A stretch of DNA of 28,014 bases from a virus, in the IMG/VR virus record IMGVR_UViG_3300027969_000354, positions 1 through 28,014 of that record, one strand, 5' to 3'. The position numbers and the translations under genes are program-made. How positions within the stretch are numbered: the first letter of the stretch is position 1; the number at the start of each line of letters is the position of its first letter. The notes beneath the pieces are model-generated. The model did no database searches, was not told the DNA's origin, and was given only the letters and a program-made list of their open reading frames with translations. Shown here piece by piece: positions 1,814 to 17,929 of this stretch.

Positions 1814-4800
1814 TTATTCTGTACCGACCTGCAAGAAGTTAGCCGGGAAGCTGTCACTGACTTGCAACGGATCACCCTCAACTGAATAGTCCTCACTGTT
1901 CCAAGTACGGTTATAGTAGAAATTGAACAATGTATTTGTCAATTTTACACCATAGACCATAGTATATTCCGAATGCATCAATCTAGCACCAGAACCATCT
2001 ACTCCTCGGGTAATTCCTGAAATTGTATTAGTCTCAGTATTAACTTTCTTAAAAGTAATAATTTCCCCACCAATATTGATAGTGTTACCTAGTCGTAGTG
2101 AAACCTCCAAGTTATCACCTTCAGAAGCACCTTTAGCTATATAAATCACTGGTCTAGAATTCTTAATAGCCAATGTAATATTTTCTGTACTTATTTGAGT
2201 TAGTGTAGAAATATTATATACAGAAATTTCCTTAATGGTCTCGACTGCGTAATTTACAAGGCACGCAACATTTTCATTTATTGTAGCTGCAACTACGGTT
2301 GTTTTGACTAAATCTAACAACTTAGCTACATCTTCGACATATATTTGACTGTCAAGTACTTCTAAGTTTTTTGTCAACCAAGTTCTGACACCTGTATTTG
2401 CTCGGTATATTGATTGTTCACCATTTTTATCAATGTGATTTACATATACTAGTTGATTGGGTGTAGCGTTTGTAATCATACTGGTAATCAAAACAACATC
2501 ACCCGTAGTAATAGGTTCTAAAATATTAAGCTTGTTTCCACTCTTAAGTTTAAGTCTACTGTTGTCAACTTTGTATCCGTTAATAGTCACAAACAATCTA
2601 TTAATATTAGTCAACGTTAAATCAGGTTGATTTATTTCATGTGTAGTGTCAGATTTCCAAATATATCCACCAGACACATAACTTGTTAGTATTTTACCAG
2701 TTACTGGTTTTGCCAACAATACATCATAGAATAGTTTAATTGGTTGATATGTTATTGCATCCTCTGTTACAGGAGTCATTAATCTAACATAATATTCATT
2801 ACCATTTAATTGTGTAGTACCGTTAATACCATCAATTGTTATTAAGTCACCGGTGACAAATTCAGGTACCGTAGTAACGATTAATGTCAACTCACCTTTA
2901 TCAGTGTTGACAGTTAATAGTGGAGTTACTTGTAATGTGTTAATGTTTTCTGTTAACAAGTATTGGTCACGGGTATCATGGAATGTAGTAACACTAATCA
3001 AATCTTCGCCAGATGCCGGATTAAACAATAATGTCACTGTACCAATTTCTGAATTAGGATCAACTGCAATAGTATACTGGATAGTTGGAATTAATCTTAC
3101 ACCATTATATTCTACAATAGCATCTACATCATTGGTATAACCATCTGAAGACAATCCAACAAAATTAGTGAGAACTAATTCAGTTATAGATGGTGCAACT
3201 TCAAATACTTGTGTTTGTGGAATACTGAAACTATTTTGTTTAGAGTTAATTTCTAGACCCATAATTGCAAAACTTAAATAATCAGTTTCAGAATGGTATG
3301 TTGTAGTGAACAATAATTTAGCTTCTTTAGATGCGGTGGTTGATATTTTGTAATCATCCTCATATATTAAAGGGTTACCGTTTAAGTAAACAACAGGAGT
3401 AGCATATATTTCCGGTGCGTATGCATAACCTAACCATATTTCACTATAACCTGTAACAGGATCAATACGTAAAGGCAAGTTCTGCGAATTACTTCTAACT
3501 TCTTGATTGCCATTACCAAATTCATATACTTCAATTTGTAGATATTTTGTGTTATCATACAAACTAACACCATCCAAAGCACTTAGCGTGATTGATTGAG
3601 TAATCCAATTGATTGAATATGAATAGCTATTAGATGTAGTAGGTGTTATATCTTGATAAATTCTAAAACCTAACTTAGTAGAAGAATCCATTAAGTATAA
3701 TGCAACGTGTGCAGGATTCTCGGTAATCAGAGAAAAGTCTATTGGTAAATCAGTAAGTGCATGTATGAATTTTTTAACTGTAAATCCATTGAATGGATAA
3801 TCTTCAACTAGCCATGTACTTCCCGGGCGAGTTGTAACAGTCATGGTTAACGTATCTGTTAATACACCGGGAACTAATTCCTCTGGTCCATAACCAGAAA
3901 TGAATGGATCACCTTTGATTTGATAGAAGTTTTCTTCTGTCTTAATCAATGATACATTTTGCCATATAACAGCATCAGTGCTACGTAGAATAGTAGCATC
4001 GGATCCAACAATAATCCAATTATCGTCACTATATGTTATTGCAGTCAATGTCTTGGTAGTATTAGATACTACTTCACTCCAAATAATTCCATCCGGGCTA
4101 GTTATAATGGTACCATCATCGCCCACAATAACAAACATTCCGTTAGCATATATACCGTTTAACAGATTAGATGTCTTTGCAGTACCGTCAATTGATGCCG
4201 GATCCCATGCATGAGAGTTAGTTGATGTGAAAACTTGATAATTGTCACCAGCTAAAACAATAGCTGTTCCAGATGATAATACTACATTTAATCCAGTTGA
4301 TACTACTCTTGGTAATATTTCTTCCCAATCAAGACCGTTCAAACTTCTGAAAGTTTTAGAAGTTGATACCAATGATGTGTATCCATTAACAGTAGTATTA
4401 GTAATTGTACCAAGACCAGTAGCAATATAACCGTCAAAGAATGCAGAAGATACATAAGCTACACGTTTAAATTGTTGAGGTAATGAACTTCTGAAGCTAT
4501 ATTGAACACTCCAAGTATAGCTGTCCGGGCTGATTAGTAATTCATCACCCACAGCAATATAGAAATTGTTGTTATAAATTACACTGTACAATTTATCTTT
4601 TGGTGCAGAAATTGATGAACTATCATATCCCACATCATCAAATTTATTAGTATCGTATGGTGTAAATTCTCCCACTGATACCCAATTTTCTAAGTCGTTG
4701 CTGGTTACGACAGGTGAATGTATATTACTTGTAACGATAACATAATGACCTTCATCATATCTAATGTCTTGTACATTTAATACATTTTTACTGATTTGTT

Positions 4801-7800
4801 TCATAGTCCAAGTTACGCCAGTATCGTGACTTAACAATATAATAGAATATGATTCAGTATCACCAATTGCAACCAACAAGTTTTGTTCGGCTACGATAAT
4901 ACCACGTAAATTGATATTGCTTGGATAGAATATTTGATCCTTCAATACAGTATCTAGTTCATTAACTAAGTCATCAAACGGTTGACCAAAGTAAGTATTA
5001 TTTGGATAATCAATACCAGATACTAACATTGGTAGATTTTTACCTGGCATGTTGTCTGTTGGATTGTAGAATCCCATGATTCTATCTAATGCATTCAAAT
5101 CAAATTCATCACTACGTACTTCTTCCCATTTGTTAAAATCAAATGCAATATCATTATTACTTACCATGCAACGATATAATGTATTATTGAATGTTACTAA
5201 ACTATATGGACTGCGAGTGTGTCCGGATGTAATGTAGATTGGTTCTGGAATATATGCATAATCACCACTTAGGAATGTAAATGCATGGTTTGGTACAGGT
5301 CTTACTAGTGAGGTGTCATAGAATAACGCAACTTGTGTCTGACTAATAGGCTTGACATAGTATTTTTCAAAAGAGTTAACTGCTACCCCGTTTAATTCAT
5401 ATACGCTTATTTCATTAGTTATATAATCTGCTAGCTTTACTGTAATCTTAGCATCATTAATACCATTCACACCACCTAAATTGCTACCGTTAATTACAAT
5501 AACATCACCATTAGCGTAAATAGTACCAGGATCAATAATTTGAATGAAGTACTTATTTGTTATGTTTTGAGCAGAGAAGTTTGGCTTAAACACCTTGATA
5601 GTTGCACCGCCGGGTCTTGAATCAACATATGTATATGGATTAATAATTTTATAAAAATATAACTGTAGACCTTTAATTTGTCCTGGTTGTAAGTTTGTAA
5701 CTGAATAATTTAATGTTGCTACGGAATCACCTGATGTGCCGGTTATTGCAACATTTAATTGAGTAGTAACGGTGGTGTTAAGATCGTAAATCACTCCAGT
5801 AAAGTCTATAAACTGAACTGCCGGTGTTATTCTGATAATGTTAGACAACTCTACGTATTCACTAGACACAGAAATAACAAATGTATTTGCTGGTATTGTA
5901 AATCCGGTAACCAGCATGCCTATTTTTGGTAGAGTTCCTGTCAATATTTTAACTGACGATGTACCAAAAATTTCAGCAGTAAATTTAGCAGTTACAACTT
6001 TAGTAATGTGAACTGAGTTTGCAGGAATAGTTCCACCGCTTAGTACCATTCCTGAAATAAACAATCCATTAATAGTTCCAGCAGCGGCAAATTGATTACC
6101 GTATATAATACCGTTAGTAGTAGATGCAATGGTTGCATTTATAGAACTCACGTTAGTGATTGGTAATACTGCTTGTTGAATACTTGCACGTGTAACGGTT
6201 GATGGCGTGCCTGCAACAGTCACTGAAGTTATTCCGCCTACATTACTAATTGTAGTAACTGTTAAGACGCAATTATTTGTAGATGAGATTCCACTTAGAT
6301 TGGCACCTGATATGGTTATAATATCACCCACATCGTATGATGCACCTGCAAAAGTAATTTCAGCATCGTAAGATAGACCAAACAATATATTGTATATTGT
6401 AAATATTGCACCAGTTCCGTCAGTAGCTGATCCTGGGTGAGTTGCTACTCCAGTAAGTCCCGGATACGGTATAGCATAGTTCACTGATAAGTCTAAACTA
6501 CTTTCTACACCATTATTAGTAACAACACTACCGTAGTATTCACCGGATGTCCATTCTTCGACCTTAGTTCTATAACTTGTTCTGTCAAATTTTAGTGTAG
6601 AAGTTAATTCTCTTGTTGGTGTATTGGATACTATTGGTACTGCTCTTGCAGAAACTTCCAACTTGTTATTAATGCTGTTTATACTTTCAGCTAAATTCAC
6701 TCTGCGTGAATCTATCATTGCATTATTCTTGGTAGTGTACAATGCTATAACTGATTTTTTATAAAATAAACTGTCTGTACTAATCACTCGCACATAGTAA
6801 TATTTTTTGTTTTGTAACCCAGAGATACCAAGACTTGTTAATGATTTGATATATTTTACTGCATCTCCGGTTAATAACGAAACTGCATTAATGTTTATAG
6901 TATTATCATTGTAGTTAATATTTGCACTATCAAATAATATAGTGATTGATGCTTGAATAACAATATCCGGTTTAGTTGTATATCCTAATCCCGGATCAGT
7001 TACAGTAATGTCAATTACTTTTCCACCTGACATAACTGGTATAAGAGTAGCAGGTCTAGTTGGTGCAGGATAAATTGTTGAATCAATTACTGCACTAATC
7101 TGTGGAGGGTCAATATAGTCTCTTCCTGAATCTAACAGTACTACTCCCGGTAAATCTATATACACAATTGTTCCTGGGATATGGTTAGCTACATCACTAT
7201 CACCTGCGCCGCGAGTTAAACTGTATAATTTACCCTTTTCTCTGTCAATTTGAGAATAGTTAATGTACTCATTATCAATTTTAATTCTTCCAGTTACTGG
7301 TAATCCAAAAGCATCATCTACATACAAAACATCGCTAATTTTATCTAAATATATTTCCAAAGATGTGATTGGATTGTTGGCACTTCCGGTCAATGATATA
7401 CCGTAATTACTATACCAGTCAGAATATAAACTATCAGTCCAGATAGCATCAGTAGGTAAAACTTGTCCGGTAGCTCTTACTGAATCAAAAACTAAATTAG
7501 GTGTTATAAATCTATCTGTAGTAACGCTATATCTGCCCGGCAAATCAAAGTCAGTTACCTGTCCAGTAAATGATTCTGCTTTAGTGTACTTCAATAAGAA
7601 TTCTTTAATGACAACACGATAAGGTTTAACTTCATTAATGAAGCCTTCCAAGAACACTTGATTATCACGCTTATAGTTTTTATCTTGTGCTAATTCACGT
7701 AATGTATGCTGTACATCTACCAATGATGTTTTATTTAACCAAGTTAAGTTGTTTTGTGAAGTTGTATTCTCGCTTACAATATATTCAAACAACAATATCA

Positions 7801-10800
7801 AACTCTTATTACGGTGAATTCGCAATGTCTCTGTGTAAATTTGTTCATTCAATGCACGAATTATATAGCGAGTTTCCATTGAAGGATATGAATCATATGC
7901 ATCTAAATCAAAGAAATTACTGTCAAAACCAATTTTGTATCCAGAATAATTCCACAATGATTCTTTGATTTGAATTGTACCCTGTTCTAATCCAATCCTA
8001 TCCCATGACTTTCCGTTGTACACATATACTTCACGCTTACCATCACTATTCATAGTAACACCGGCGATCATACCTAGGTACGGGATCAGTGTGGCAAGAC
8101 CATAATATTTAGAAACTTCAACGTCAATTTTAGTATTGACACTATAACCTTCAGCCCACCAGTAAATATATTCCCAATACTTAGTTGTATCAAAATCAAC
8201 TCCAGCTATAGTAAAGAATGTAGGTGCTCTTACTGTACTACTTTCACTATTACTAGAACCTAGCAAACTAGGAGTTTTAAACTCAGCGATAGGGTATTGT
8301 TTCAATACTGTATTAGCATATCCAAAATAGTTAGCCAATGCTTTTAATCTATTCTTAAACATACTTTGTCTAGGTCTATATGCTGTACCAGTTTGCATTA
8401 ACTTAGGTAATGTAATGTCGGGTACTACACGACCCTGACTGTCCATACCAGCAAGACTGTCTAGTAATTTTTCATACATCGCTTCTGGTTCATTATGCTC
8501 GGTATACATTGAGGGGATACCGGCAATAAAGTCATCTTCATAACCTGCACGAATTAATTTATATTCATTGTATGCCGGTGTTTCGTTACTACCAGAACTG
8601 AAACCAATATATAAACTAGAGGTTAAATCTGTTATAAAGTCACTAGCATTATACAAGCCAAATACGTTTGGTTTATATGCCGCAAAGAATGGCACACCTG
8701 ATGTTATTGGATTTGCAATATATAATTCTAAAATTGTATCAGATAGAGTTTTGCCCTTAGTACTTTGAATAACATTAGTATTCTTTACCCAGTAATAGTA
8801 TTTCAATACTAATGATCCTGCATTATCAACTTCGACTGTAGTTGTATATGATTCTAAGTCGTAGGGTGTTCCTGTTCCTGTGTAGTTTACGGGAGTAACA
8901 TCACTCTCGACCCACGTATATACGCTTACTACACTATCAGGGAAAACAGTGCCCCAATATCTACTATTATATACAGTATCTTCTTGGTGATAGTTTACAA
9001 AACGAGTTGAGGATGTGTCAAACCATAGTTTACCTATATATTCACTAGACCAAACTAAGTTATGATTTCTAACGTCTGTATTGTAACCAGCAGGGTCAAT
9101 GCTATCAACATAGTCTAGATTTTCCATGACCACACCCAACAACTTGCCTTGCAATGGATCAATATAATCTAATGATTGACTACGTTCATTGGTGTCGTTG
9201 TCATATATTTGAACTCCGGATAATCTATCAACATCAACAACATCATTTGATTTTCTAAATATGTTCCAATTTGGTTTGTTAGTAAGATTTTTATAAGCAA
9301 CTACCCTACCATTAAATCCATCTCCTGAATAATTATCAGGTATACCAACAACCAATGTGTATTCACTAAATGCTAATTGTCTACCATAGAATGCACTAGG
9401 TCCAATGTTAGTAATTAAATCATTACATGATTGAGCAAATACATAACTACCTAAGTTACTTAGACTTTCATTATATTCTGCAATATAGTCATAAACAAAT
9501 ACTGCACCTGCATTTGCAAATGAATCAATAAATCTAGTGAAGTTATTATCAAAATACGTGTCATTATTTGATTTACTATCGTCAATAAAATCAAATGTTG
9601 TTGCGGCAAATCTATTTGCCACCGGCGCACTAATCGCCACTGAGTTATATTCATTAAACTTTATAGAATATCCAAATTGAGTTGGATTTGTAGTATTATG
9701 AACTTCTCTAATAGTTTGTGTTTGGGTGTACTCTTTGATTCCTAAACTATCTAGTACAGATTTGTTAAACACAGTGATTGTTAATTTGTCATTTAATCTA
9801 CCTAATTTAGGATCACGTAAACTAATCTGTAGTTTAGTTTCATCAATGGCAGTTGCTATCACGTTTAATATTCCTGCTTGGTTAATAGCAGTAACAATAT
9901 TATTTAAACCTGTACTAGGTAATACTACAACTGTTCCGTTGATTAAAATAGTTGCAGTAGAAACCAAAGTTACTGCATTTACTCCAGTAATTGTGCCGTA
10001 CTTTTTACCTTCATGTGTATATCTATAGACTGCACCTTCATAATTATCAACTGATATATCGAACGGTGCACCAACAAGAACATCATTGCCAAATATATTT
10101 GTGTCTAATCCTGTACCAAATGCAATACTGGATCTAACACTTGTTCTATAGTCGTATGGTGTAAGAGTTTGTGTGAAAACAAAGTCGCCTGAACTAATAT
10201 TAACTACATCACCTGCACCAACTCTAAACGGATATTTAAACGTAACTGTGTTAGCTGTGGTAGTGTAATCTATTGCAGGAACTAGTAACTGACCATTATG
10301 TGAGACTGAAATACCATTTGCAGGAGACCACGCTAGCTTAGTAGTTAAATCTGTCCAATCAATAGAGTCACGCACGTATGTAATATTTTGCACTATTCTG
10401 TTATAAACATATACTGCACCCATATTGAATAGTGTGGGTGTAAAATCTAATGTAGGTGCACTGATAAAAACTTTACTTCCATCAAAATTTGTAGATAAAG
10501 TAGTACCAAAGCCAGTGTTAGATACTTTCCAGTATACTGTCTGGGTGCTTGGATTTTGGTTAGTGCTGCCGCCTACTGCTATATAAGTGTTACCACTATG
10601 AAATACCACTGCACCTACACTGTAGGGTGTAGAGCCTGACCAAGCAGGAATAACATCTGACACATTTAATGTTGTTACACTTGAATAATTATATGTTGCT
10701 TTATAGACTGTAGTTCCAGTAGCTACTAGTGATTTAAAATTACCTTCAATGTAAAAAGTAGTCTTATTTGTACCTAAATTGTATTCACTAGTTTCAATTA

Positions 10801-13800
10801 CATATGATTCTGCTTTGATAGCATTAGAGAATGAAACTTTATCTCCATGACCTAACCCATCAGACTGGTCTCCGTTAACTATAAAACCAGTAGCATAGAT
10901 TGCGATTGCAGATGAGAGTACAAATCCAGCAGATACACGAATAACATTATCATCAAGTCTATACACATAAACTTTTGCTTCTGTTAAAGAACTTAAATAT
11001 AACCATTTCTTATCACCAGATAATGCTACCGCATCACCTACACGTTTACCGGCAATAGTAATTACTTGTTGAACAATAAACGATTTATGCGTACTTGGAT
11101 GTAATACACCAACATAGACATAACTGTTTGTCGCACCAGGTGAAGTAATTATAATAACATCATCTGATTTAGCCATTGCAGTACCAAATCCAGCTGTATT
11201 TACATATGCTGATTCTTTATATTCATATGTATTTGCATTAATTGAAGTTACACCATACGTACCTGCCTTAGCATAAGCATATCTGTAAACTGTTCTTGCT
11301 CCAGGATCTCCAATATATATTCCTAAGTCTTTATCAAATATAACAGAGTTACCAAAATTCTGTGTACCTGATCGTTTTAATAAATTAGTATATTTGTAGC
11401 TTAAATCTTTTTGCAATACTGCCCATTTACCATTTTGGTCAGTGTCAACCCATACTTTTTGTTGACTAGCCCCGTCATTCATTAATAATAAATTAGATAA
11501 TTCTTTTGTGGTTGTTATGCGTTGAGTTTGAAACTTAGACGCAATACCCAAACTATTGATTGAGGTTGTGTCTGACGGCAATGATAAATCTACTGTCACG
11601 GTTGTTAGACCACCTACAGTATTAACTCTATAAAACCCGTCAATAGAGGAATCATAGTTAACAATCATAAATGTATCGTCTTTTACTAACCCGTGCGGGA
11701 AATCAAATTCAAATGTAGCAGTACCATTAAAATTATTATTTACACTTATAGCATTAACATGTTTATTAATAGTACCCATTGGAATTGGTGTAGTTACTTT
11801 CCAACTACCATAGTCATCTGCAATCCAAATATAATCACCCTGAAATATGTCATTTGCAGTCAGCGTACCTACACTCAATCTGTCAAATGATAAGCTAAAC
11901 ATCTTAATGTCATTAAAGTTTACATATCCTGCGCTTGGTAACTTCTCAAAATAATCAAGGGGTTTTCTAGGTAGAATATTAATGTCTGTAATTACTGATC
12001 CAAAATTAGTTAGTCCATATAAAGGAATAGTCTGTAATAGTCCTGATTCAGGTTTATCATTTACTATACCTATGATATTGGGATTACCAGTTAATTGAGT
12101 TTTGTTAAGTTTGAATTCAATAAAATTATGGTTAGTTATTCCACCGTATTCAGCAGTCTTAATAGCCCAGTTTTCATATACATCATATTTGATTTGTCCA
12201 ACATCTAATGTAATGTTTTGAGCAATATTAACTGCATTCTTAGTTCCCTTTTCACTAAGAAAACTTTTATATAAATTAACTTGTGAAATATCTGATAAAT
12301 CACTAGCAGATAAGTAATCTCTAGGTCTATATCCAATCAATGAGAACCCTAGCAAATCTCCATCATTCTTTAAGTTAGCATTTTTAATATCATAGTACAA
12401 TGCACTTTCTGATGCACGTGTACTTGCATTGGGTAATAACCCTTTTTGAATCTTTTCGTAATCTGTTTCAATCCAATCATTTGAATTGAATGTAAGTGAT
12501 GCCAACACCGTTTTATTAGCCATCCAATATTTGTTCTGATGTGTTACAATAGAACCCTTAACGTATTTTACATTCGCTGACCAATTTTCAATATTATCCT
12601 GATTTAATAAGAATCCTTGAGCATTTAATGTACCATTCCATTCAGCAGTTTTTTGTCCTCGCAAGAACAATCTATTCTGACGTAATCCGGTAAGTTTGTT
12701 GAATATTGTATCATTGAACAATGACACGTTATCAAACACAATACCATGTTCTAGTGAATTTAAACTGGCAGTAAAATATGAAATAGTATCACCATCATTT
12801 AATGGTCTAACTTCAAATCTAGTGTCATCTCTTAATATTGCTAAATCGCTTGAATGAATTGCATATAAGTTTTGATTCAAAATAAAATTCTTATCCTGTG
12901 CGGTAAGTGGCTGGACAATTAAACTATCTTTATTAATTACTAAACAATTTGCAACTGGATTAATACTAATCAAACTTCCAACTTCCCAATTTGCGCCTAC
13001 CCAATATAGTGCCTCAGCAACCATTTGTTCCCAGTTTAATATGAATTCATTTTCTTGATTATCAAATTGTATTCCTTGGTCGGTTAGATATCTACCGTAG
13101 TTTGTAATGAATTCACCCAGTGATTGCGCTGTAGTAAACACCGTACCATAAGGAACATATTTAATTACAGTGCTGTAATTATTAGGTATATTAACCTTTT
13201 TACCATTTACTTCAATTACTTTGTACGTACCATCCGGGTCGGATGTATATGTCATAAAATATGAACGAGTCTGACTATTACCGGTAACTGAATATCCATT
13301 AGCAGAAGTTTTTTGTATAATTATACTACTATAGCGAATAGTAAATTCAGGTTGATTTTGATACAACATTACATTGTAACTTTCACTAGGTAACAACAAT
13401 GACACATTATTTGAATTGGTGCTTGTTTTTTCTAAGTAAAAATTTAAATATTCTTTGTCGGTAAAACCAGCAATTCTATAAATTAATCTTACATCTAAAT
13501 TGTTTAATAATGATGTAACTTTATTATGTCCTATGTGTCCGGTTCGTTGAACATAATCAACAATCCAATTCATATAACCATGCTGTGCTGTCCCATTACC
13601 ATACAATAGTGGAATTTTATTCCCATGTAGGAATCCATCCAACAAGAATTGGTTAAATTCTGAACTATATGTATATAAATCTATATCCTGTGCCAATGAG
13701 AAGAACTTTGCAGGTTTTAATAATGCAATTATCTTCATTAAATCAAATGGCCAGTTACTACTTCTTCTATAACTATATTCTGCAGGACCTACATCACCCA

Positions 13801-16800
13801 CATCCCATGCAGTGTTAAATACTGCCTTACTATAATCACGAACCATTGTATTAAATGGATTCTTTAAATTACCATATGAATCAACCGGCAATATTGTAGA
13901 CAATCCGGGTCTTGCTCTACGTGAATTAACTGTTCCATTAATTCTTCCTGCCTCAATGTCTGTCCACAATACTTTATTATCGCTAGTATATGGTGCTTCA
14001 CCATAACGAGCATCCCACCAAGAAGGTTTATCTGTTAGTCCCAACATCTCCCATGGCGTTGAATGAGGGGTGGTAGTATCATAATACCACAAATATATTC
14101 CTCTCCAGAAACCTTGAGTTATAACTTTATTAGTTTTATCTGTAGCATTTTTGTAATTCCAAGTAAATTTTTCACTTGAAGAATAAAAATTATTTGCAAA
14201 GTCAATGTTATTCTTACCAACCCAGTCTAAGAAATTAACAGAATATATATTTTGAACTTCTGCTATTGAGTTGCCGGTGCTTCTAAAGTAACCAGGAATA
14301 ATTTCATCTTCTTTGATTGGAATAGGAGCACTTACTTTGATGTTATTATAGATACGAGTTTCAAACTCTAATAAAACTTTATCTTTAAAATCTTCTAAGT
14401 AACCATTATTATATGCACCAAACAATTTAGTTAATGATCCGTCATGTCCTTTAATAAAATACGTAGGAATTAGATAACTGTTGTCTAATACAATACTTGG
14501 GCGACTTGCAGGATATAATCCTAATTTGCTAGGAGTATTTGGAACATAACTACCATACGTAGTATTATATTCGTTGACTATGATTGTATCCCCTGCCACT
14601 AAATCCTTAGTAATTTGTAATTTAGGCTGAGTACTGCTAATAGTATAATCTAAATCTTTAATTAATTGAGTGTATCTATCAATCCCGCCGACAGTATTCT
14701 TACTATAAACTAAAATTGAATTATAGTTTGCATTTTTAAAATCATATATCTTGCTTAATGGGAAGAAGCTTGTATCAATAAATGCATTGAATGTATAAAT
14801 TTTAGAGATATATGGTGCTCTCGCAGGTAACATATCTGACCAAAAGAAACTATCACTTTCTTGTTTATATGAAGCAATCTGTTGCAATACATCATCTAAC
14901 ATCTGTCCACCGGACATTGTTGGGAAATATTCTGATTGGTCAACAGTTGATAACATCAATTGTTTAAACTTAACATATTCTTGTGCGTTAAATGACAATG
15001 AATCTATTAAATTGTATTCTGGATGGCGCATGAATGCTGCCAATTTTACCATTGGCGCACTGTTTCTGATTATTTTAGTAGAATACGGAATTAAATTTCC
15101 AACATCTCTAAAGTTATTTGCCCCAAACACATCACCGGTAATTTTTCTACTGTTATTGTAAATGCTTTGGTAATGTCCACGCAAATCACCTAAACTTAAT
15201 TCAGGGATATCAACATTGAACGGGTTATTAGATAAGTTACTTGGTATAGTAAAATATGCTTTTGAATCAAGTGGATCATTACTGTATATCAACACTTGCA
15301 TCATTGTATTAACTACTGGTGGAAATAATAAAGTAACAGTTGTTTGATTTAACGTAGTTGATGTTTTAACTGTAAATTGTGATGAAGTGAGTTCCGTACT
15401 ATCAAAATAAACTTTGACTGTTGGCCAAGGACTTGAAGTTACCGGCAATATATTAAATTTTAATGTTGAAAAAGATTTACCAATGGTATATTCAAATTCA
15501 AATGCTTGATACTGAAAACTTTCACCAATCGCAGTTTCCCAACCTATTTTTCTATTGTAGGCAGTAAGTGAAGTATAGTTATGAACATATCCATCGGTAA
15601 TATTATATGTAGTAGAAACAAAATTTTTAATAAAATTAAACGAATCACTGTTAAAATCAATATTAAAATTAATATCGCCAATATTAGCTACTGAACTATA
15701 CTTTATTGGAAACCCCAATATAATATCATCAGTACCGGTACCAATAGCATATGAAAATAATTTAGTTCCCTTAAAATCACTACCTTGATAATATGATTGA
15801 TTGCTAAAACTTACACCATTAATATCAAACACATCGAATATAGGAGGTTGATTTATTAATGTTTTTGCTTGTGAGTACGACCAATTTGACCCGTTAAAAT
15901 AATATGTTTTGCCAACGTTATTAGTTCCACGTTTTGAAACTACTTGTTCATTTGCAACAATTACATCTTTATTTGCATTAGTTAATGTAATTATCGGTGA
16001 ACCAGATCCAGTAATTGATCGAAATCTTACAGTAAATATTTTATTTCGCACTTCAACATCATTATCAGCAGTAAAAACAATTGTTGCACCATCAAATAGC
16101 GGTAAGCTACCATCGGGTATGTAAGATGTTTGTCCTGATACTTGAGTATTAGCATTAGTGGTTGTAGTATCAATAAAATCAACAAATGTTTTATGCATAG
16201 TCCCACTATTAAACAATTTTAAATTTGGATAAAATTCAATGATTGGTCTTTTGGCACGGTTATCTGCGTTGTTCAATGCGGCGTTAGATATCTTGCCACT
16301 TGAATATAAAGCAGTAGCTTTCAATACATTAATATGAAACCAACGATTACTACGACTCCATGCATTTCTATTTTTTGCATTTCTACTAATAGTAATGTAA
16401 TCTTTAACTACAGGGACATTCAATCGTTCACTGAATGTTGATGTATCAAATCCTTCATTATCATATGATTTATAAACAATCTGACTGAAGGTTTCTGGAA
16501 CCAATACATCAGTTTCAGGTACTAATTCTATTCCAGTTCCAACACCTTCTACATAGTATTTTTTATCTTTATATGATTCCGGAAATATTGAGCCCACAAA
16601 ATTAATCTTCATTCCGTTTGTAAACACAACACCAAACGGACTTTTATAAGTTTTCTTCCCTAGAATTTCAGCTTCAACATTGATTTTATGTGATGCATTA
16701 TCTTCTACTAACTTTATAAGTCCGGTCTTTAATGGATCAACTGCGTCCTGATAATATAGTGTATCTAAATCAGCCGTGATTTGTGCTAATTGAAGTATTT

Positions 16801-17929
16801 CACCTAATTGATTTTTTACAAAGTCTCTGCTAATAAAAGTTTCACCAAATATTGCAGTAATTTTTTGATTAGTTGGAATAACCTTCTGTTCAGTCAATAT
16901 AATTACGGGGTCACCGTCGTCTTCACTAACATAATTAATTTTATAGAAATTATTTGTAATTACTGTAGTATCACCGCCGTCATAGGTAACATCATCAAAT
17001 GCTACGTTGTCATAGAAGTTAGTAAGTTTAGCAGTTGTTCCCGGTTTAAATCCATAAAACATTAATGTTCTGTTACGCAATGAATTAATTCCATCAATTT
17101 CTTTAAGTTTACTCAATGGCATACCGTGTACTTTTTCGAAAGGTAAAGTACACACAATGTCAACTGGATTATTACCGGGATATTTGATATTATCTTGGTC
17201 AGTTGCATAAGGGACAGTAAACGTCATAAAACCAGCATCAATGCCGTTATTATCCAATCCATAAATCTCTCTGCTAGTTAAGTTAACACGTGATGGATTT
17301 TTACCTGAAGTTCCAGGACTAGTTTGAATATAAAACTTATTTGGTTGTGATACATTAAATGTGTAGGTGCCACCACGTAGTAATGTTATTATTGGATTCT
17401 TACCCAAACTAATGTCATTGGCAGAAATAGAATAGTCTATTGACTGATTAGTAACAACATAATCTAATTTGTTATACAATAAACTAGTTTTTACATCCAC
17501 AACATCAGGACCATCAGGCAACCAATAGTATTGACTGAAGTTAACAAGTTTATCTAAATCTACAAAACTATCCCATGAATAGAATTGATTTGCAAATAGT
17601 TTAGAATGATTAATTACTGATCCATTTTCAGATACAAGTGCGTCAACTAATCCGGGGTATGTTAAAAAATCAACCGCAGTACTAGTATTAGTTTTAGTAA
17701 ATATTACACCTGGTTCAAACTGATAGTCTTGTCTAATTTTACTAGGTTCAACAATATAACTATCACTAGCAGTTAATCCATATTCGAATTTACGACCAAT
17801 ATATCCTTCAATTTTATCTAATTTAGGAGGTGTAACTAGTTGGTCTAGGGTAGCACCCAAGAATTGATTATTAGTTTCTGTTCTAAAAATCTCAGGAAGA
17901 AAATCAATTGTTCTAACTCTATTTGCCAT
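1814..17929 (-). CDS. Giant modular baseplate protein, 5371 residues, in the gp7 position
   Basis: One uninterrupted frame of 5371 residues. It follows gp6 after a five-base gap, with a weak GGA eight bases before the ATG. The opening (MANRVRTIDFLPEIFRTETN, then DWLPDG-like aromatic segments near residues 115-145) is one I associate with very large structural proteins of environmental T4-type phages. T4 gp7, the wedge protein encoded after gp6, has 1032 residues, so this is about five times longer. Visible parts include a Trp/Tyr-rich segment at about 1270-1320, a seven-blade FG-GAP-like region at about 2180-2890, a conserved-looking helical segment at about 3136-3226 (PSMYTEHNEPEAMYEKLLDS), and Gly/Thr-rich beta repeats at about 3540-4220. 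A second seven-blade region lies at about 4340-4655, and beta-sandwich repeats at about 4840-5330. No signal peptide or membrane segment is evident. Wedge or peripheral baseplate location is inferred from position; the module contents suggest surface contacts. Direct homology to gp7 is unproven. Confidence 0.85.
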   Translation of the reverse strand: MANRVRTIDFLPEIFRTETNNQFLGATLDQLVTPPKLDKIEGYIGRKFEYGLTASDSYIVEPSKIRQDYQFEPGVIFTKTNTSTAVDFLTYPGLVDALVSENGSVINHSKLFANQFYSWDSFVDLDKLVNFSQYYWLPDGPDVVDVKTSLLYNKLDYVVTNQSIDYSISANDISLGKNPIITLLRGGTYTFNVSQPNKFYIQTSPGTSGKNPSRVNLTSREIYGLDNNGIDAGFMTFTVPYATDQDNIKYPGNNPVDIVCTLPFEKVHGMPLSKLKEIDGINSLRNRTLMFYGFKPGTTAKLTNFYDNVAFDDVTYDGGDTTVITNNFYKINYVSEDDGDPVIILTEQKVIPTNQKITAIFGETFISRDFVKNQLGEILQLAQITADLDTLYYQDAVDPLKTGLIKLVEDNASHKINVEAEILGKKTYKSPFGVVFTNGMKINFVGSIFPESYKDKKYYVEGVGTGIELVPETDVLVPETFSQIVYKSYDNEGFDTSTFSERLNVPVVKDYITISRNAKNRNAWSRSNRWFHINVLKATALYSSGKISNAALNNADNRAKRPIIEFYPNLKLFNSGTMHKTFVDFIDTTTTNANTQVSGQTSYIPDGSLPLFDGATIVFTADNDVEVRNKIFTVRFRSITGSGSPIITLTNANKDVIVANEQVVSKRGTNNVGKTYYFNGSNWSYSQAKTLINQPPIFDVFDINGVSFSNQSYYQGSDFKGTKLFSYAIGTGTDDIILGFPIKYSSVANIGDINFNIDFNSDSFNFIKNFVSTTYNITDGYVHNYTSLTAYNRKIGWETAIGESFQYQAFEFEYTIGKSFSTLKFNILPVTSSPWPTVKVYFDSTELTSSQFTVKTSTTLNQTTVTLLFPPVVNTMMQVLIYSNDPLDSKAYFTIPSNLSNNPFNVDIPELSLGDLRGHYQSIYNNSRKITGDVFGANNFRDVGNLIPYSTKIIRNSAPMVKLAAFMRHPEYNLIDSLSFNAQEYVKFKQLMLSTVDQSEYFPTMSGGQMLDDVLQQIASYKQESDSFFWSDMLPARAPYISKIYTFNAFIDTSFFPLSKIYDFKNANYNSILVYSKNTVGGIDRYTQLIKDLDYTISSTQPKLQITKDLVAGDTIIVNEYNTTYGSYVPNTPSKLGLYPASRPSIVLDNSYLIPTYFIKGHDGSLTKLFGAYNNGYLEDFKDKVLLEFETRIYNNIKVSAPIPIKEDEIIPGYFRSTGNSIAEVQNIYSVNFLDWVGKNNIDFANNFYSSSEKFTWNYKNATDKTNKVITQGFWRGIYLWYYDTTTPHSTPWEMLGLTDKPSWWDARYGEAPYTSDNKVLWTDIEAGRINGTVNSRRARPGLSTILPVDSYGNLKNPFNTMVRDYSKAVFNTAWDVGDVGPAEYSYRRSSNWPFDLMKIIALLKPAKFFSLAQDIDLYTYSSEFNQFLLDGFLHGNKIPLLYGNGTAQHGYMNWIVDYVQRTGHIGHNKVTSLLNNLDVRLIYRIAGFTDKEYLNFYLEKTSTNSNNVSLLLPSESYNVMLYQNQPEFTIRYSSIIIQKTSANGYSVTGNSQTRSYFMTYTSDPDGTYKVIEVNGKKVNIPNNYSTVIKYVPYGTVFTTAQSLGEFITNYGRYLTDQGIQFDNQENEFILNWEQMVAEALYWVGANWEVGSLISINPVANCLVINKDSLIVQPLTAQDKNFILNQNLYAIHSSDLAILRDDTRFEVRPLNDGDTISYFTASLNSLEHGIVFDNVSLFNDTIFNKLTGLRQNRLFLRGQKTAEWNGTLNAQGFLLNQDNIENWSANVKYVKGSIVTHQNKYWMANKTVLASLTFNSNDWIETDYEKIQKGLLPNASTRASESALYYDIKNANLKNDGDLLGFSLIGYRPRDYLSASDLSDISQVNLYKSFLSEKGTKNAVNIAQNITLDVGQIKYDVYENWAIKTAEYGGITNHNFIEFKLNKTQLTGNPNIIGIVNDKPESGLLQTIPLYGLTNFGSVITDINILPRKPLDYFEKLPSAGYVNFNDIKMFSLSFDRLSVGTLTANDIFQGDYIWIADDYGSWKVTTPIPMGTINKHVNAISVNNNFNGTATFEFDFPHGLVKDDTFMIVNYDSSIDGFYRVNTVGGLTTVTVDLSLPSDTTSINSLGIASKFQTQRITTTKELSNLLLMNDGASQQKVWVDTDQNGKWAVLQKDLSYKYTNLLKRSGTQNFGNSVIFDKDLGIYIGDPGARTVYRYAYAKAGTYGVTSINANTYEYKESAYVNTAGFGTAMAKSDDVIIITSPGATNSYVYVGVLHPSTHKSFIVQQVITIAGKRVGDAVALSGDKKWLYLSSLTEAKVYVYRLDDNVIRVSAGFVLSSAIAIYATGFIVNGDQSDGLGHGDKVSFSNAIKAESYVIETSEYNLGTNKTTFYIEGNFKSLVATGTTVYKATYNYSSVTTLNVSDVIPAWSGSTPYSVGAVVFHSGNTYIAVGGSTNQNPSTQTVYWKVSNTGFGTTLSTNFDGSKVFISAPTLDFTPTLFNMGAVYVYNRIVQNITYVRDSIDWTDLTTKLAWSPANGISVSHNGQLLVPAIDYTTTANTVTFKYPFRVGAGDVVNISSGDFVFTQTLTPYDYRTSVRSSIAFGTGLDTNIFGNDVLVGAPFDISVDNYEGAVYRYTHEGKKYGTITGVNAVTLVSTATILINGTVVVLPSTGLNNIVTAINQAGILNVIATAIDETKLQISLRDPKLGRLNDKLTITVFNKSVLDSLGIKEYTQTQTIREVHNTTNPTQFGYSIKFNEYNSVAISAPVANRFAATTFDFIDDSKSNNDTYFDNNFTRFIDSFANAGAVFVYDYIAEYNESLSNLGSYVFAQSCNDLITNIGPSAFYGRQLAFSEYTLVVGIPDNYSGDGFNGRVVAYKNLTNKPNWNIFRKSNDVVDVDRLSGVQIYDNDTNERSQSLDYIDPLQGKLLGVVMENLDYVDSIDPAGYNTDVRNHNLVWSSEYIGKLWFDTSSTRFVNYHQEDTVYNSRYWGTVFPDSVVSVYTWVESDVTPVNYTGTGTPYDLESYTTTVEVDNAGSLVLKYYYWVKNTNVIQSTKGKTLSDTILELYIANPITSGVPFFAAYKPNVFGLYNASDFITDLTSSLYIGFSSGSNETPAYNEYKLIRAGYEDDFIAGIPSMYTEHNEPEAMYEKLLDSLAGMDSQGRVVPDITLPKLMQTGTAYRPRQSMFKNRLKALANYFGYANTVLKQYPIAEFKTPSLLGSSNSESSTVRAPTFFTIAGVDFDTTKYWEYIYWWAEGYSVNTKIDVEVSKYYGLATLIPYLGMIAGVTMNSDGKREVYVYNGKSWDRIGLEQGTIQIKESLWNYSGYKIGFDSNFFDLDAYDSYPSMETRYIIRALNEQIYTETLRIHRNKSLILLFEYIVSENTTSQNNLTWLNKTSLVDVQHTLRELAQDKNYKRDNQVFLEGFINEVKPYRVVIKEFLLKYTKAESFTGQVTDFDLPGRYSVTTDRFITPNLVFDSVRATGQVLPTDAIWTDSLYSDWYSNYGISLTGSANNPITSLEIYLDKISDVLYVDDAFGLPVTGRIKIDNEYINYSQIDREKGKLYSLTRGAGDSDVANHIPGTIVYIDLPGVVLLDSGRDYIDPPQISAVIDSTIYPAPTRPATLIPVMSGGKVIDITVTDPGLGYTTKPDIVIQASITILFDSANINYNDNTININAVSLLTGDAVKYIKSLTSLGISGLQNKKYYYVRVISTDSLFYKKSVIALYTTKNNAMIDSRRVNLAESINSINNKLEVSARAVPIVSNTPTRELTSTLKFDRTSYRTKVEEWTSGEYYGSVVTNNGVESSLDLSVNYAIPYPGLTGVATHPGSATDGTGAIFTIYNILFGLSYDAEITFAGASYDVGDIITISGANLSGISSTNNCVLTVTTISNVGGITSVTVAGTPSTVTRASIQQAVLPITNVSSINATIASTTNGIIYGNQFAAAGTINGLFISGMVLSGGTIPANSVHITKVVTAKFTAEIFGTSSVKILTGTLPKIGMLVTGFTIPANTFVISVSSEYVELSNIIRITPAVQFIDFTGVIYDLNTTVTTQLNVAITGTSGDSVATLNYSVTNLQPGQIKGLQLYFYKIINPYTYVDSRPGGATIKVFKPNFSAQNITNKYFIQIIDPGTIYANGDVIVINGSNLGGVNGINDAKITVKLADYITNEISVYELNGVAVNSFEKYYVKPISQTQVALFYDTSLVRPVPNHAFTFLSGDYAYIPEPIYITSGHTRSPYSLVTFNNTLYRCMVSNNDIAFDFNKWEEVRSDEFDLNALDRIMGFYNPTDNMPGKNLPMLVSGIDYPNNTYFGQPFDDLVNELDTVLKDQIFYPSNINLRGIIVAEQNLLVAIGDTESYSIILLSHDTGVTWTMKQISKNVLNVQDIRYDEGHYVIVTSNIHSPVVTSNDLENWVSVGEFTPYDTNKFDDVGYDSSSISAPKDKLYSVIYNNNFYIAVGDELLISPDSYTWSVQYSFRSSLPQQFKRVAYVSSAFFDGYIATGLGTITNTTVNGYTSLVSTSKTFRSLNGLDWEEILPRVVSTGLNVVLSSGTAIVLAGDNYQVFTSTNSHAWDPASIDGTAKTSNLLNGIYANGMFVIVGDDGTIITSPDGIIWSEVVSNTTKTLTAITYSDDNWIIVGSDATILRSTDAVIWQNVSLIKTEENFYQIKGDPFISGYGPEELVPGVLTDTLTMTVTTRPGSTWLVEDYPFNGFTVKKFIHALTDLPIDFSLITENPAHVALYLMDSSTKLGFRIYQDITPTTSNSYSYSINWITQSITLSALDGVSLYDNTKYLQIEVYEFGNGNQEVRSNSQNLPLRIDPVTGYSEIWLGYAYAPEIYATPVVYLNGNPLIYEDDYKISTTASKEAKLLFTTTYHSETDYLSFAIMGLEINSKQNSFSIPQTQVFEVAPSITELVLTNFVGLSSDGYTNDVDAIVEYNGVRLIPTIQYTIAVDPNSEIGTVTLLFNPASGEDLISVTTFHDTRDQYLLTENINTLQVTPLLTVNTDKGELTLIVTTVPEFVTGDLITIDGINGTTQLNGNEYYVRLMTPVTEDAITYQPIKLFYDVLLAKPVTGKILTSYVSGGYIWKSDTTHEINQPDLTLTNINRLFVTINGYKVDNSRLKLKSGNKLNILEPITTGDVVLITSMITNATPNQLVYVNHIDKNGEQSIYRANTGVRTWLTKNLEVLDSQIYVEDVAKLLDLVKTTVVAATINENVACLVNYAVETIKEISVYNISTLTQISTENITLAIKNSRPVIYIAKGASEGDNLEVSLRLGNTINIGGEIITFKKVNTETNTISGITRGVDGSGARLMHSEYTMVYGVKLTNTLFNFYYNRTWNSEDYSVEGDPLQVSDSFPANFLQVGTE
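1940..2085 (-). repeat. Module with the I-x-x-E-x-I-x-F/Y ... TRG pattern, copy 2 (giant protein, about residues 5283-5330)
   Basis: The translated segment has INIGGEIITFKKVN followed by ISGITRGVDGSGA, a histidine, and then MVYGV. It matches a segment at 7150-7305 with IKIDNEYINYSQID, then YSLTRGAGDSDVANH and GTIVYID. The shared order (I-x-x-E-x-I-x-aromatic, TRG, G, A, H, V-Y) suggests a duplicated small beta domain, common in phage fibre and baseplate proteins. Confidence 0.5.
2475..3400 (-). repeat. Three C-terminal beta-sandwich motif repeats in the giant protein (about residues 4843-5152)
   Basis: Three segments share the pattern V-x-x-N-G-x-x-L followed by a D/Q-Y step, then a hydrophobic strand and G-D/E-x-hydrophobic. 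They begin PVVYLNGNPLIYEDDYK (about residue 4843), AIVEYNGVRLIPTIQYTI (about 4935) and LFVTINGYKVDNSRLKL (about 5111). Comparable copies occur further upstream at about residues 837, 1072 and 2540. I recognise this as a small beta-sandwich type seen in phage fibres and baseplate proteins. Boundaries are approximate. Confidence 0.5.
3960..4910 (-). other. Second predicted seven-bladed propeller (WD/BNR-like) inside the giant protein
   Basis: At about residues 4340-4655 a unit recurs with a hydrophobic strand ending in V/A-G-D or similar, then T-I-hydrophobic, S/T-x-D/N, and an aromatic W. Clear examples are NGMFVIVGDDGTIITSPDG with IIWSEV, DDNWIIVGSDATILRSTDA with VIWQNV, and NNFYIAVGDELLISPDS with YTWSVQ. 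I count seven units, the usual number for a closed propeller. Such BNR/sialidase-like or photosystem-assembly-like repeats occur in carbohydrate-binding phage proteins. Fold and sugar binding are inferred. Confidence 0.6.
5105..5250 (-). other. CBM5/12-like module 3 in the giant protein (about residues 4228-4275)
   Basis: The segment runs from SPYSLVTFNNTLYRCMVS to FDFNKWEEV. The spacing Y-S-x-x-hydrophobic-V/T-x-x-x-x-x-Y followed by a late W matches small chitin-binding-type modules. Two sister segments occur at 12455-12595 and 10525-10660. Confidence 0.4.
5850..6110 (-). repeat. Tandem I-P-A-N beta repeat in the giant protein (about residues 3940-4030)
   Basis: Two consecutive units share G-M-x-x-x-G-x-x-I-P-A-N-x-V/F: ISGMVLSGGTIPANSVHIT and KIGMLVTGFTIPANTFVIS. 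This unit type is frequent in repetitive phage structural proteins. No separate function can be assigned. Confidence 0.5.
7150..7305 (-). repeat. Module with the I-x-x-E-x-I-x-F/Y ... TRG pattern, copy 1 (giant protein, about residues 3543-3593)
   Basis: First copy of the duplicated small beta domain described at 1940-2085, with IKIDNEYINYSQID, YSLTRGAGDSDVANH and GTIVYID. It is directly followed by a G-x-G-Y-T-x-x-P type beta segment (DITVTDPGLGYTTKP at about residue 3640). Confidence 0.5.
9735..9999 (-). other. Flagellin/hook IN-motif-like module inserted between propeller blades (about residues 2644-2731)
   Basis: The segment contains ATILINGTVVVLPSTG, then LNNIVTAINQAG, then VIATAIDETKLQISL. 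This order (T-I-x-I-N-G, a helix with I-x-x-A-I-N, then V-x-A and L-x-I) matches the pattern of the flagellin hook IN motif known from flagellar cap and hook-associated proteins and from some phage proteins. Assigned from the motif by eye only. Confidence 0.5.
10525..10660 (-). other. CBM5/12-like module 2 in the giant protein (about residues 2424-2468)
   Basis: The segment reads AWSGSTPYSVGAVVFHSGNT, then YIAV, N-P-S-T and YWKV. W, Y-x-x-G-x-x-V, a strand with Y-x-A, N-P and a final W are the hallmarks of chitin-binding type 3 / CBM5/12 modules. It sits between blades 3 and 4 of the FG-GAP-like propeller. Confidence 0.55.
12455..12595 (-). other. CBM5/12-like module 1 in the giant protein (about residues 1778-1825)
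   Basis: The segment reads NWSANVKYVKGSIVTHQNKY, then WMAN and FNSNDWIE. It has the same W, Y-x-x-G-x-x-V, Y/W-x-A and final W framework as the module at 10525-10660. Confidence 0.5.

Follow-up and report, generated by a model that had tools for sequence, protein, structure and literature searches.

An intriguing question raised by this locus is how a phage comes to encode a single protein of 5,371 residues directly behind its gp6 homologue, where T4 encodes gp7; namely, whether the frame is a true gene and, if so, whether its product is a gp7 homologue, a fusion of wedge proteins or a fibre. The window (the whole stretch of DNA analysed, 28,014 nucleotides of IMG/VR record IMGVR_UViG_3300027969_000354) derives from an uncultured T4-related, probably jumbo, myophage. 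The best explanation, to which we give a probability of about three in four, is that a real and selected gene encodes a product that takes the place of T4 gp7, with a scaffold that would hold the wedge and modules that would face outward as an adhesion layer. This reading builds on observed features (the frame, its selection, gene order, family and block pattern) and on a predicted one, the fold of a propeller.

An intact gene directly behind gp6

The frame runs on the minus strand from an ATG through 5,371 codons to a stop, with a computed mass of 597.7 kDa (~598 kDa) and pI of 4.9; when the bases of the window were shuffled 200 times, the longest run without a stop reached 192 codons. Two other contigs (IMGVR 3300009164_000047, L022, and 3300010885_009120, L024), from samples possibly not independent of that of the window, carry all 16,113 nt without a single difference, then TAA. 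A relative with 88% amino acid identity (L025) is open across an equal length, and comparison with it gives a dN/dS of 0.09 over the whole length (dN 0.067, dS 0.72) and of at most 0.17 in all 14 segments of up to 400 residues. A stop-to-stop frame of 5,366 codons occurs on three more contigs at 63% identity, a full-length frame is also known at about 50%, and one uncultured relative has a frame of 6,545 codons. The giant gene is real and under selection. The preliminary description had reported an uninterrupted 16-kb frame directly after gp6, which the identical contigs and the 88% relative confirm, and had raised an assembly error that removed stop codons, which those contigs and the dN/dS contradict. 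The gene is frameshifted on one relative contig (L034); nevertheless, we reject an assembly or gene-calling artefact, which has practically no chance of being correct given the identical contigs, the dN/dS over the full length and the full-length frames in relatives.

The minus-strand order is a 912-aa virion protein, a 1,071-aa gp5-like hub protein, gp25, gp6 and the giant frame, which starts 5 nt past the end of the gp6 homologue (Table 1). This is the gp25–gp6–gp7 order of the T4 gp7 family, with gp25 and gp6 identified upstream. The gene after the giant encodes a homologue of PA5oct gp357, the database record of which carries an ESI-MS/MS note. Searches for tRNAs and Rfam families returned nothing, and no terminator was found at positions 1600–1900, where the one promoter-like site lies on the opposite strand, a count equal to chance expectation.

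Table 1 Features of the locus, with residues numbered along the giant protein
Feature	Residues	Window position	Strand	Evidence
Fibre-like protein, PA5oct gp358/gp359 homologue		3..1004	-	first 334 of 403 codons (whole on L020); cut by window edge
205-aa homologue of PA5oct gp357		1039..1656	-	phrog_11259 E 6e-66; hhalign 100%
Giant gp7-position protein, PHROG 10938 family	5371 aa	1814..17929	-	profile match and frame
gp6-like baseplate wedge protein, 1109 aa		17935..21264	-	phrog_10646 E 8.7e-255, phrog_219 E 3.7e-24; Pfam Gp6-like_1st below cut-off
gp25-like wedge protein, 149 aa		21313..21762	-	PF04965 29.4 bits, cut-off 27.2
gp5-like baseplate hub protein, 1071 aa		21765..24980	-	phrog_13211 E 3.7e-36
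Conserved N-terminal block	1-147	17489..17929	-	alignment of 26 sequences
Conserved scaffold block	~507-1033	14831..16411	-	phmmer to Phosso, Atu_ph07, PA5oct, others
Conserved scaffold block	~1120-1780	12590..14572	-	phmmer and alignment
CBM5/12-like module	~1778-1823	12461..12598	-	PF02839 E 1.1e-4, 22.6 bits, cut-off 26.2
Conserved scaffold block	~1830-2045	11795..12442	-	phmmer
KGT motif, weak link to cyanophage gp7	~1870-1930	12140..12322	-	hhalign 40%, E 3e-4
Small barrel like FCCH domain of E1 enzymes and phi92 endosialidase domain	~2048-2135	11525..11788	-	VIA Z 10.6 (7sol), Z 9.5 (4hiz)
Predicted integrin-alpha-type FG-GAP beta-propeller	~2190-2890	9260..11362	-	AlphaFold2 model and VIA; PF14312 in relatives
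CBM5/12-like motif inside propeller region, weak	2429-2452	10574..10645	-	PF02839 E 4.7
Conserved scaffold block	~2890-3135	8525..9262	-	sequence comparison
Conserved scaffold block	~3245-3510	7400..8197	-	phmmer
GxGY-type repeat region, common to cyanophage gp7	~3574-3753	6671..7210	-	hhalign 99.5%, E 3e-22 to S-CAM9 gp7
CBM5/12-like motif, weak	4244-4259	5153..5200	-	PF02839 E 0.026
Stop and new start in relative L014	~4275	5107	-	ATGA overlap preceded by a purine-rich stretch
Second propeller-like region, Ycf48/BNR-like by sequence	~4330-4660	3950..4942	-	hhalign 97.9, 98.3% to S-CAM9 gp7 C-terminal part
Stop and new start in relatives L030/L035	~4725	3757	-	overlapping ATG, GGAAGG upstream, same in both contigs
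Second FCCH-like motif, weak	5012-5054	2768..2896	-	PF16190 E 0.0019, below cut-off

Family membership and possible kinship with gp7

Three of four pieces of the giant protein match phrog_10938 (E = 5e-135, 7.4e-69 and 2.6e-51); the C-terminal piece has no match to it. Members of this family follow gp6 in PA5oct-, Atu_ph07- and RaK2-like phages, have 3.3–4.6 k residues (PA5oct gp355, 3,857 aa; Atu_ph07 gp180, 4,449; Phosso, 4,555; RaK2 gp465, 3,326; also 121Q 582 and GAP32_230), and share with the giant protein their place after a wedge gene and the same conserved blocks. A wedge-annotated gene directly precedes the giant in seven of nine named records (PA5oct, Atu_ph07, RaK2, 121Q, GAP32, XbC2 and Phosso); the preceding gene is a CBM5/12 protein by annotation in Vibrio 2.275 and hypothetical in SCTP-2. 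All four members tested (PA5oct, SCTP-2, Atu_ph07 and Phosso) have a CBM5/12-like match below cut-off, as does the giant protein, and unlike its lineage none has an FG-GAP match at E ≤ 0.1. The last 1,471 residues have matches in only 5 phage records, all within the Ycf48-like region.

Many database records label these giants hypothetical or virion structural protein. The record of PA5oct gp355 carries an ESI-MS/MS note; the paper on Atu_ph07 does not mention gp180 in its main text. Three further virion proteins are putative kin by position, size and annotation, and the CBB record also matches by tblastn. According to the available portions of the reports, CBB_236 was detected in the virion with 21 peptides and is listed beside the baseplate wedge CBB_237 (PMC5259590), phAPEC6 gp245 (382 kDa) gave 17 peptides and lies beside wedge gp244 (PMC7247149), and one of ten gel bands was assigned to RsoM2USA ORF361 (PMC8504454). 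The family is already in databases, because the best BFVD structure matches of residues 1030–2186 are A0A6J5L8L4 and A0A6J5T0D1 (uncultured Caudovirales, UniProt; 32 and 30% identity); such relatives are uncharacterised, or named for a YHYH domain. A sequence search found no solved structure of any family member.

Giant gp7-position proteins rank as very large phage proteins, and the available text of one review (PMC13282480) mentions neither 'wedge' nor 'largest protein'. The size alone is not new, because cyanophage gp7 (PHROG 2885) reaches 5,195 residues in P-SSM2 (4,446 in P-HM1 and 3,884 in S-CAM9) and an uncultured frame has 6,545 codons; together with the jumbo-phage proteins of 3.3–4.6 k residues, these overturn a reading of the protein as unprecedented. 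Giant size is also not universal at this place, because the gene after gp6 in the Pelagibacter phage HTVC008M has only 1,016 codons.

The protein is like T4 gp7 (1,032 residues, as previously stated) in gene position and presumably in its wedge role, and unlike it in sequence. It has no match to the Pfam Gp7 domains, phrog_964 or phrog_2885. Comparison by hhalign of 22 overlapping pieces with T4 families, with reversed controls for five of the seven, gave best probabilities of 4.4% for gp7, 3.7% for gp10 and at most 1.1% for gp8; the controls reached 1.4%, so that gp7 and gp10 exceed them slightly but stay far from significance. The profiles of T4 gp11 and gp53, built from only 1 and 2 sequences, are weak. 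The profile search against the gp7 and gp8 families that the preliminary description had proposed thus yielded no significant match, and a fusion of wedge genes 7, 8 and 10 into one chain, as a reading of the fusion or accretion that it suggested, is unsupported. A fusion would fit C-terminal parts that are separate genes in two relative lineages, as well as the lack of a gp8-like gene, which holds by profile for the giant protein and for the next three genes on contig L020 (encoding 205-, 403- and 331-aa proteins; nothing above 10% against T4 or cyanophage gp8). However, none of the 22 pieces comes near significance, and cyanophages with giants of similar size (S-CAM9, P-HM1 and ACG-2014f) keep gp8 as a separate gene next door; we regard fusion as very improbable. 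The companion claim that there is no gp10-like gene holds for the giant protein, which lacks a significant gp10 match, but not clearly for the window: the fibre-like frame at its edge is homologous to PA5oct gp358/gp359, and gp358 is a T4-like gp10 according to its record note. It is gp358 itself, not the window gene, that matches T4 gp10, over the C-terminal part of the latter.

Cyanophage gp7 resembles the giant protein as a giant wedge gene after gp6 with common GxGY repeats, a Ycf48-like region and a weak KGT motif, and differs in an N-terminal core that cannot be aligned. The KGT region scores 34.8 against cyanophage gp7, whereas 40 shuffles of the columns reach no more than 18.9, and the cyanophage region that it matches itself matches T4 gp7 residues 726–758 at 96%. 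These values favour a true T4 gp7 homologue with a core split by huge insertions, in which an N-terminal LPxxFR motif and KGT (residue ~1895) would be the gp7/gpI core halves, ~1,750 or more residues apart. We take LPxxFR to resemble P2 gpI/TIGR02242-type tail proteins, a likeness that NCBIfam and Pfam do not bear out. Against a split core, direct comparison with T4 gp7 gives 0.5%, the pLDDT of the KGT region is under 50, and the first 150 residues have no match in cyanophage or T4 gp7, find nothing in NCBIfam or Pfam and have only chance matches in the PDB by profile (best E = 0.64). The first 1,400 residues have no PDB match, and the model of residues 1030–2186 (pLDDT 70) has none by Foldseek at E ≤ 0.001; among its matches listed, small domains fill the list and T4 gp7 is absent. 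We put homology through a split core at slightly below even odds. The link to gp7 is one of position and of the weak KGT motif; the protein likely works like gp7, and descent from gp7 is not shown by these comparisons.

Scaffold, insertions and a predicted propeller

The giant chain combines a conserved scaffold with insertions specific to individual lineages and an extension at the C terminus, and has grown mostly by insertion into its middle and by that extension. The earlier picture of a chain of beta modules grown stepwise survives in this form. Six copies of the beta module were chosen by eye, so their scores hold by construction; an iterated search for more copies found none at E below 0.3.

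Structure models cover residues 1030–3370, the first 1030–2186 and the second reaching ~3370; in the second, the propeller fills the match list and model residues 716–1191 (~2895–3370) are barely tested. Residues ~2190–2890 are predicted to have an integrin-type propeller fold. All of the best 50 listed VIA matches are integrins (Z 31.6–35.1; rmsd 2.6–3.8 Å over 326–349 residues; 15–20% identity). Because 933 of 964 aligned chains have Z ≥ 8, propellers in general match and integrins rank first. PF14312 (FG-GAP_2) matches 20 of the 27 aligned members at E ≤ 0.1, with a best value of 5.7e-18; Pfam FG-GAP has no match in the giant protein itself, and a strict FG-GAP regular expression finds none there and two each in the relatives L015 and L016 only. 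The protein's own blades are, by their sequence, worn, and because the regular expression fails the FG-GAP assignment draws on the model together with the Pfam matches of relatives. The sequence places seven blade starts (2192, 2248, 2297, 2474, 2604, 2752 and 2848), of which, on leaving each out in turn, five rank 1st–3rd of 182 and the others 8th and 31st. A tblastn search with the propeller region matched 0 of 50,697 phage records, and residues 2201–2900 gave a best PDB profile match that is unrelated (E = 0.057).

The integrin alpha subunit has an FG-GAP propeller of this predicted fold; unlike it, the propeller here would sit within a phage protein. A literature search by title, mostly of openly accessible journals, found no paper that describes a phage baseplate with an FG-GAP propeller. 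That jumbo virions can contain propellers was known before, because phage CBB has Kelch-type propeller proteins, one of them in the virion according to the available part of that report (PMC5259590). Giant gp7-position proteins being already known, it is the predicted mid-chain integrin-like propeller that would set this lineage apart.

Among the other modules, residues ~1778–1823 align with Milano baseplate chain 8fqc_P1 (Z 7.4, 45 residues, 1.1 Å), a Z that alone proves little. The CBM5/12-like motif in the propeller region has a phmmer match to chitinase C (E = 0.32), and phrog_8147, a tail fibre family, matches at ~2425–2470 (E = 2e-5). The GxGY region has a phrog_460 match at ~3591–3686. 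The Ycf48-like region matches NCBIfam Ycf48 far below cut-off (E = 0.022), and residues 4234–4700 have no PDB match at E ≤ 1.

Proposed role in the baseplate

T4 gp7 is present as one copy per wedge, bound to gp6, gp8, gp10 and gp53. If the giant product does take T4 gp7's place, it would do so in all six wedges of the baseplate, where blocks ~1–147, 507–2045 and 2890–3510 would bind the adjacent gp6 and keep the wedge intact. The inserted and C-terminal modules (the FG-GAP and Ycf48-like propellers, CBM5/12-like and E1-FCCH-like domains and beta-module repeats) would project outward and form an integral layer for adhesion or fibre docking. We infer this wedge location, copy number, gp6 contact and surface-binding role; six copies would come to ~3.6 MDa in all, and the baseplate would be bulkier than that of T4. 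The wedge role is supported because gp25 and gp6 lie directly upstream, a wedge gene precedes the giant in most named records (7/9), and cyanophages hold giant wedge- or gp7-annotated genes at the same position. A fibre-like or whisker protein at the periphery, encoded after gp6 by chance and with another gene in the gp7 seat, would account for the lack of significant sequence similarity to T4 gp7 and for several modules that recur in tail fibres and spikes; yet the position after the wedge gene is kept in divergent phages, the conserved blocks are long and no other gp7-like gene was seen among the window frames scanned, and we consider such a protein unlikely.

With the product as a wedge protein in the gp7 position, the locus yields a block map of conserved scaffold, insertion sites and natural cut points, and makes two questions testable: gp7 replacement in jumbo phages, and receptor-binding domains inside the wedge of large baseplates. 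A phage baseplate with the fold of an integrin head, if true, would surprise structural phage biologists. Only tentatively do we suggest that, across a large clade of uncultured phages, the wedge protein may itself have become an organ of adhesion, with a propeller and carbohydrate-binding-like modules inserted in a gp7-position scaffold, host binding by the wedge chain and not only by separate fibres, and outer modules that pass between the chain and separate genes.

Joining or splitting of the chain does occur, because C-terminal modules have genes of their own in two relative lineages, with cut points at two different residues (Table 1). The break on L034 lies elsewhere, at residue ~2650; it is probably an indel and was left aside.

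The giant frame and its family

The 5371-codon frame in the gp7 position after gp6 is real; the record that holds it is a viral fragment of 28,014 bases. In 200 shuffles, the longest stop-free run arising by chance was 192 codons. Two other IMG/VR contigs, L022 (97.7 kb) and L024 (50.4 kb), carry an identical 16,113 bases with 0 differences. A relative with 88% identity (L025) has an open frame of equal length (dN 0.067, dS 0.72), and dN/dS in this comparison is at most 0.17 in 14 of 14 windows along the giant; the uninterrupted 16-kb frame of the preliminary description is thus borne out.

Three of four pieces of the giant match phrog_10938 (E 5e-135 to 2.6e-51), a family of giants that follow gp6 in PA5oct-, Atu_ph07- and RaK2-like phages; the C-terminal piece does not match this family. 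Searches with the first 1333 residues (tblastn) recovered 57 phage records, all with less than 60% identity, including PA5oct-like phages, Atu_ph07, Phosso, SCTP-2, Vibrio 2.275 and RaK2/121Q/GAP32-like phages. The homologues have 3857 residues in PA5oct, 4449 in Atu_ph07, 4555 in Phosso, 3807 in SCTP-2, 3771 in Vibrio 2.275 and 3326 in RaK2, and in 7 of 9 named records the annotation of the gene directly 5' of the giant is baseplate wedge. In Salicola phage SCTP-2, this gene, in the gp6 position (L004:8609-17899), has 3096 codons; enlargement may extend to a second wedge protein there. Closed stop-to-stop frames of uncultured relatives reach 5571 (L036) and 6545 (L037) codons, and frames cut by the end of the locus reach 5702. 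In a tree of 50 rows, constructed after dropping near-copies and low-coverage rows (including SCTP-2 and the related loci L030 and L035), a branch with support of 100 separates the eight named phages from all other rows, and the query is placed among metagenomic rows.

The gene is split in some relatives. In L030 and L035, which are 99.97% identical over the compared stretch, the first frame ends at the position corresponding to residue ~4725, and a restart follows at an overlapping ATG preceded by GGAAGG; in L014, the stop and restart at residue ~4275 share an ATGA overlap preceded by GGGAAGAAA. The second frames match giant residues 4730-5370 (L030/L035) and 4277-4846 (L014, cut by the contig end), so the C-terminal modules can be separate chains. 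A 13-row tree requires two changes to account for the two split rows, whose neighbours are unsplit as far as visible (nearest forks supported at 91-94%); L015 is cut at residue ~4553 and L017 at ~4664, and L036, L037, L038 and L041 cannot be compared over their last parts. In another relative (L034:1880-2080), the frame breaks at residue ~2650 with no new start after it, probably owing to an indel in the contig.

Relation to gp7

Cyanophages have a giant gene after gp6, annotated as a wedge subunit, gp7 or 'baseplate wedge initiator' (15,588 nt, or 5195 aa, in P-SSM2; 4446 aa in P-HM1; 3884 aa in S-CAM9). The surprise earlier attached to size alone falls away, given that cyanophage gp7 and the proteins of uncultured relatives are of comparable or greater size. 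A separate gp8 adjoins the giant gp7 gene in S-CAM9, P-HM1 and ACG-2014f, whereas the gene after gp6 in Pelagibacter phage HTVC008M has merely 1016 codons.

We compared 22 overlapping profile pieces of the giant with T4 gp6, gp7, gp8, gp9, gp10, gp11 and gp53 and with ten pieces of S-CAM9 gp7, using five reversed T4 families as controls. The best T4 values were 4.4% (gp7) and 3.7% (gp10), with gp8 at 1.1% or less and reversed controls up to 1.4%. The strong matches to S-CAM9 gp7 are those of the GxGY repeats (99.5%) and of the Ycf48-like region (98%), followed by residues ~3519-3580 (85%) and ~5274-5329 (70%), and several more (38-67%) fall within these regions. Residues 1861-1916 reached 20.6%; refinement resolved this match as a KGT motif at 40% (score 34.8, whereas 40 column shuffles gave 18.9 or less). 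The cyanophage KGT stretch matches T4 gp7 726-758 at 96%; the direct comparison of the giant with T4 gp7 fails (0.5%). The KGT motif gives a weak link to cyanophage gp7. Sequence does not place the giant in gp7, and a like-for-like role with gp7 is the better-founded claim. Limnohabitans phage DC31 (76 kb) encodes a protein (L102:7902-9692) with three stretches that resemble the Ycf48-like region of the giant.

A predicted integrin-type propeller

The predicted integrin-type insertion, rather than size, is the part worth following.

Features of the giant gene and protein
Feature	Position	Basis
Giant gene, minus strand	window 1814-17929	5371 codons, stop-free
Conserved blocks	residues ~5-147, 507-1033, 1120-1780, 1830-2045, 2890-3135, 3245-3510	phmmer to named jumbo phages
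Lineage-specific stretches	residues ~150-500, ~2190-2885, 3510-5371	phmmer
CBM5/12-like module	residues 1782-1804	E 1e-4, below Pfam cut-off
E1-FCCH-like barrel	residues ~2048-2135	Z 10.6 to Uba6, 9.5 to phi92 endosialidase
Predicted FG-GAP propeller	residues ~2190-2890	AlphaFold2 model
~50-residue beta module, six copies	residues 838, 1072, 2540, 4845, 4938, 5112	picked by eye

The AlphaFold2 model of residues 2180-3370 (27 aligned sequences) has a pLDDT of 78 and a pTM of 0.59; within model residues 20-590, ten-residue blocks mostly exceed 80, and the last ~120 propeller residues are lower (39-88). In VIA, all 50 matches listed are integrin alpha chains (Z 31.6-35.1, rmsd 2.6-3.8 Å over 326-349 residues); 933 of 964 aligned chains reach Z ≥ 8, so propellers in general match, with integrins first. 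The best Foldseek match is an integrin (E 8.8e-8); its top rows also include further propeller proteins, DDB1 among them. Of the 27 aligned members, 20 carry Pfam FG-GAP_2 at E ≤ 0.1 (5.7e-18 at best), but the query itself has no match; relatives have repeats of the type FG-x-A/S ... VGAP ... G-x-V-Y.

Searches of 50,697 phage records (tblastn) returned 0 matches to the query propeller region at E 0.01, and the L042 propeller region matched 0 phage records at E 0.001. The L038 region matched 58 records; in the 25 matches listed, alignments start at L038 residue 648 or later, no earlier than the last blade and for the most part in the conserved block that follows the propeller. The proteins of PA5oct, SCTP-2, Atu_ph07 and Phosso lack a Pfam FG-GAP match. 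Given these tblastn and Pfam negatives, the predicted propeller is an insertion so far found in uncultured phages of this PHROG 10938 family alone. By analogy with T4 and from gene position, one copy of the giant per wedge would be held through the conserved blocks and gp6, and the propellers and small, putatively binding modules would point outward from the wedge.

Baseplate operon and virion relatives

On the minus strand, 5' of the giant, are gp6 (phrog_10646, E 8.7e-255), gp25 (PF04965, over the cut-off), a gp5-like hub protein and another protein matching a virion-protein profile. The T4 record has much shorter counterparts (660 and 575 codons) of the gp6-like (1109 aa) and gp5-like (1071 aa) proteins (window:17935-24980). 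The giant is followed on its 3' side by a 205-aa protein and the first part of a 403-aa one; the latter is entire on contig L020, where a 331-aa protein is next. Profile comparison identifies the three as homologues of PA5oct gp357, gp358/gp359 and gp360, so this cultured jumbo phage shares the operon and not the giant alone. The PA5oct record notes ESI-MS/MS detection for gp357, gp358/gp359 and gp360, and has an ESI-MS/MS note on the giant gp355 itself.

Three further proteins are placed as relatives by position, size and their authors' annotation. CBB_236 is listed beside baseplate wedge CBB_237 with 21 peptides and 7.7% coverage (PMC5259590), and phAPEC6 gp245 (381.88 kDa) beside baseplate wedge gp244 with 17 peptides and 7.6% (PMC7247149). 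In RsoM2USA, the authors matched one of their ten gel bands to ORF361 (2541 residues), the neighbour of a baseplate wedge ORF; the protein's mass is given as >288 kDa and the gel described as 18 to >116 kDa, so this is not proof of an intact band (PMC8504454). The Atu_ph07 giant, gp180, goes unmentioned in the main text of that phage's paper (PMC6102473).

The 403-aa protein (window:3-1004, cut by the window edge) has a weak match to a Peptidase_G2 autoproteolytic domain (E 0.0041, below the cut-off). Further 3' of the baseplate genes, L020:20573-21988 encodes a protein that is radical-SAM-like by eye (CxxxCxxC motif); Atu_ph07 and Phosso likewise have annotated radical SAM genes 3' of their giants. 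A 779-aa protein (L020:21967-24306) has several W/F/P-rich repeats of the type FDFSWHPDxxEPP...FGTQW.
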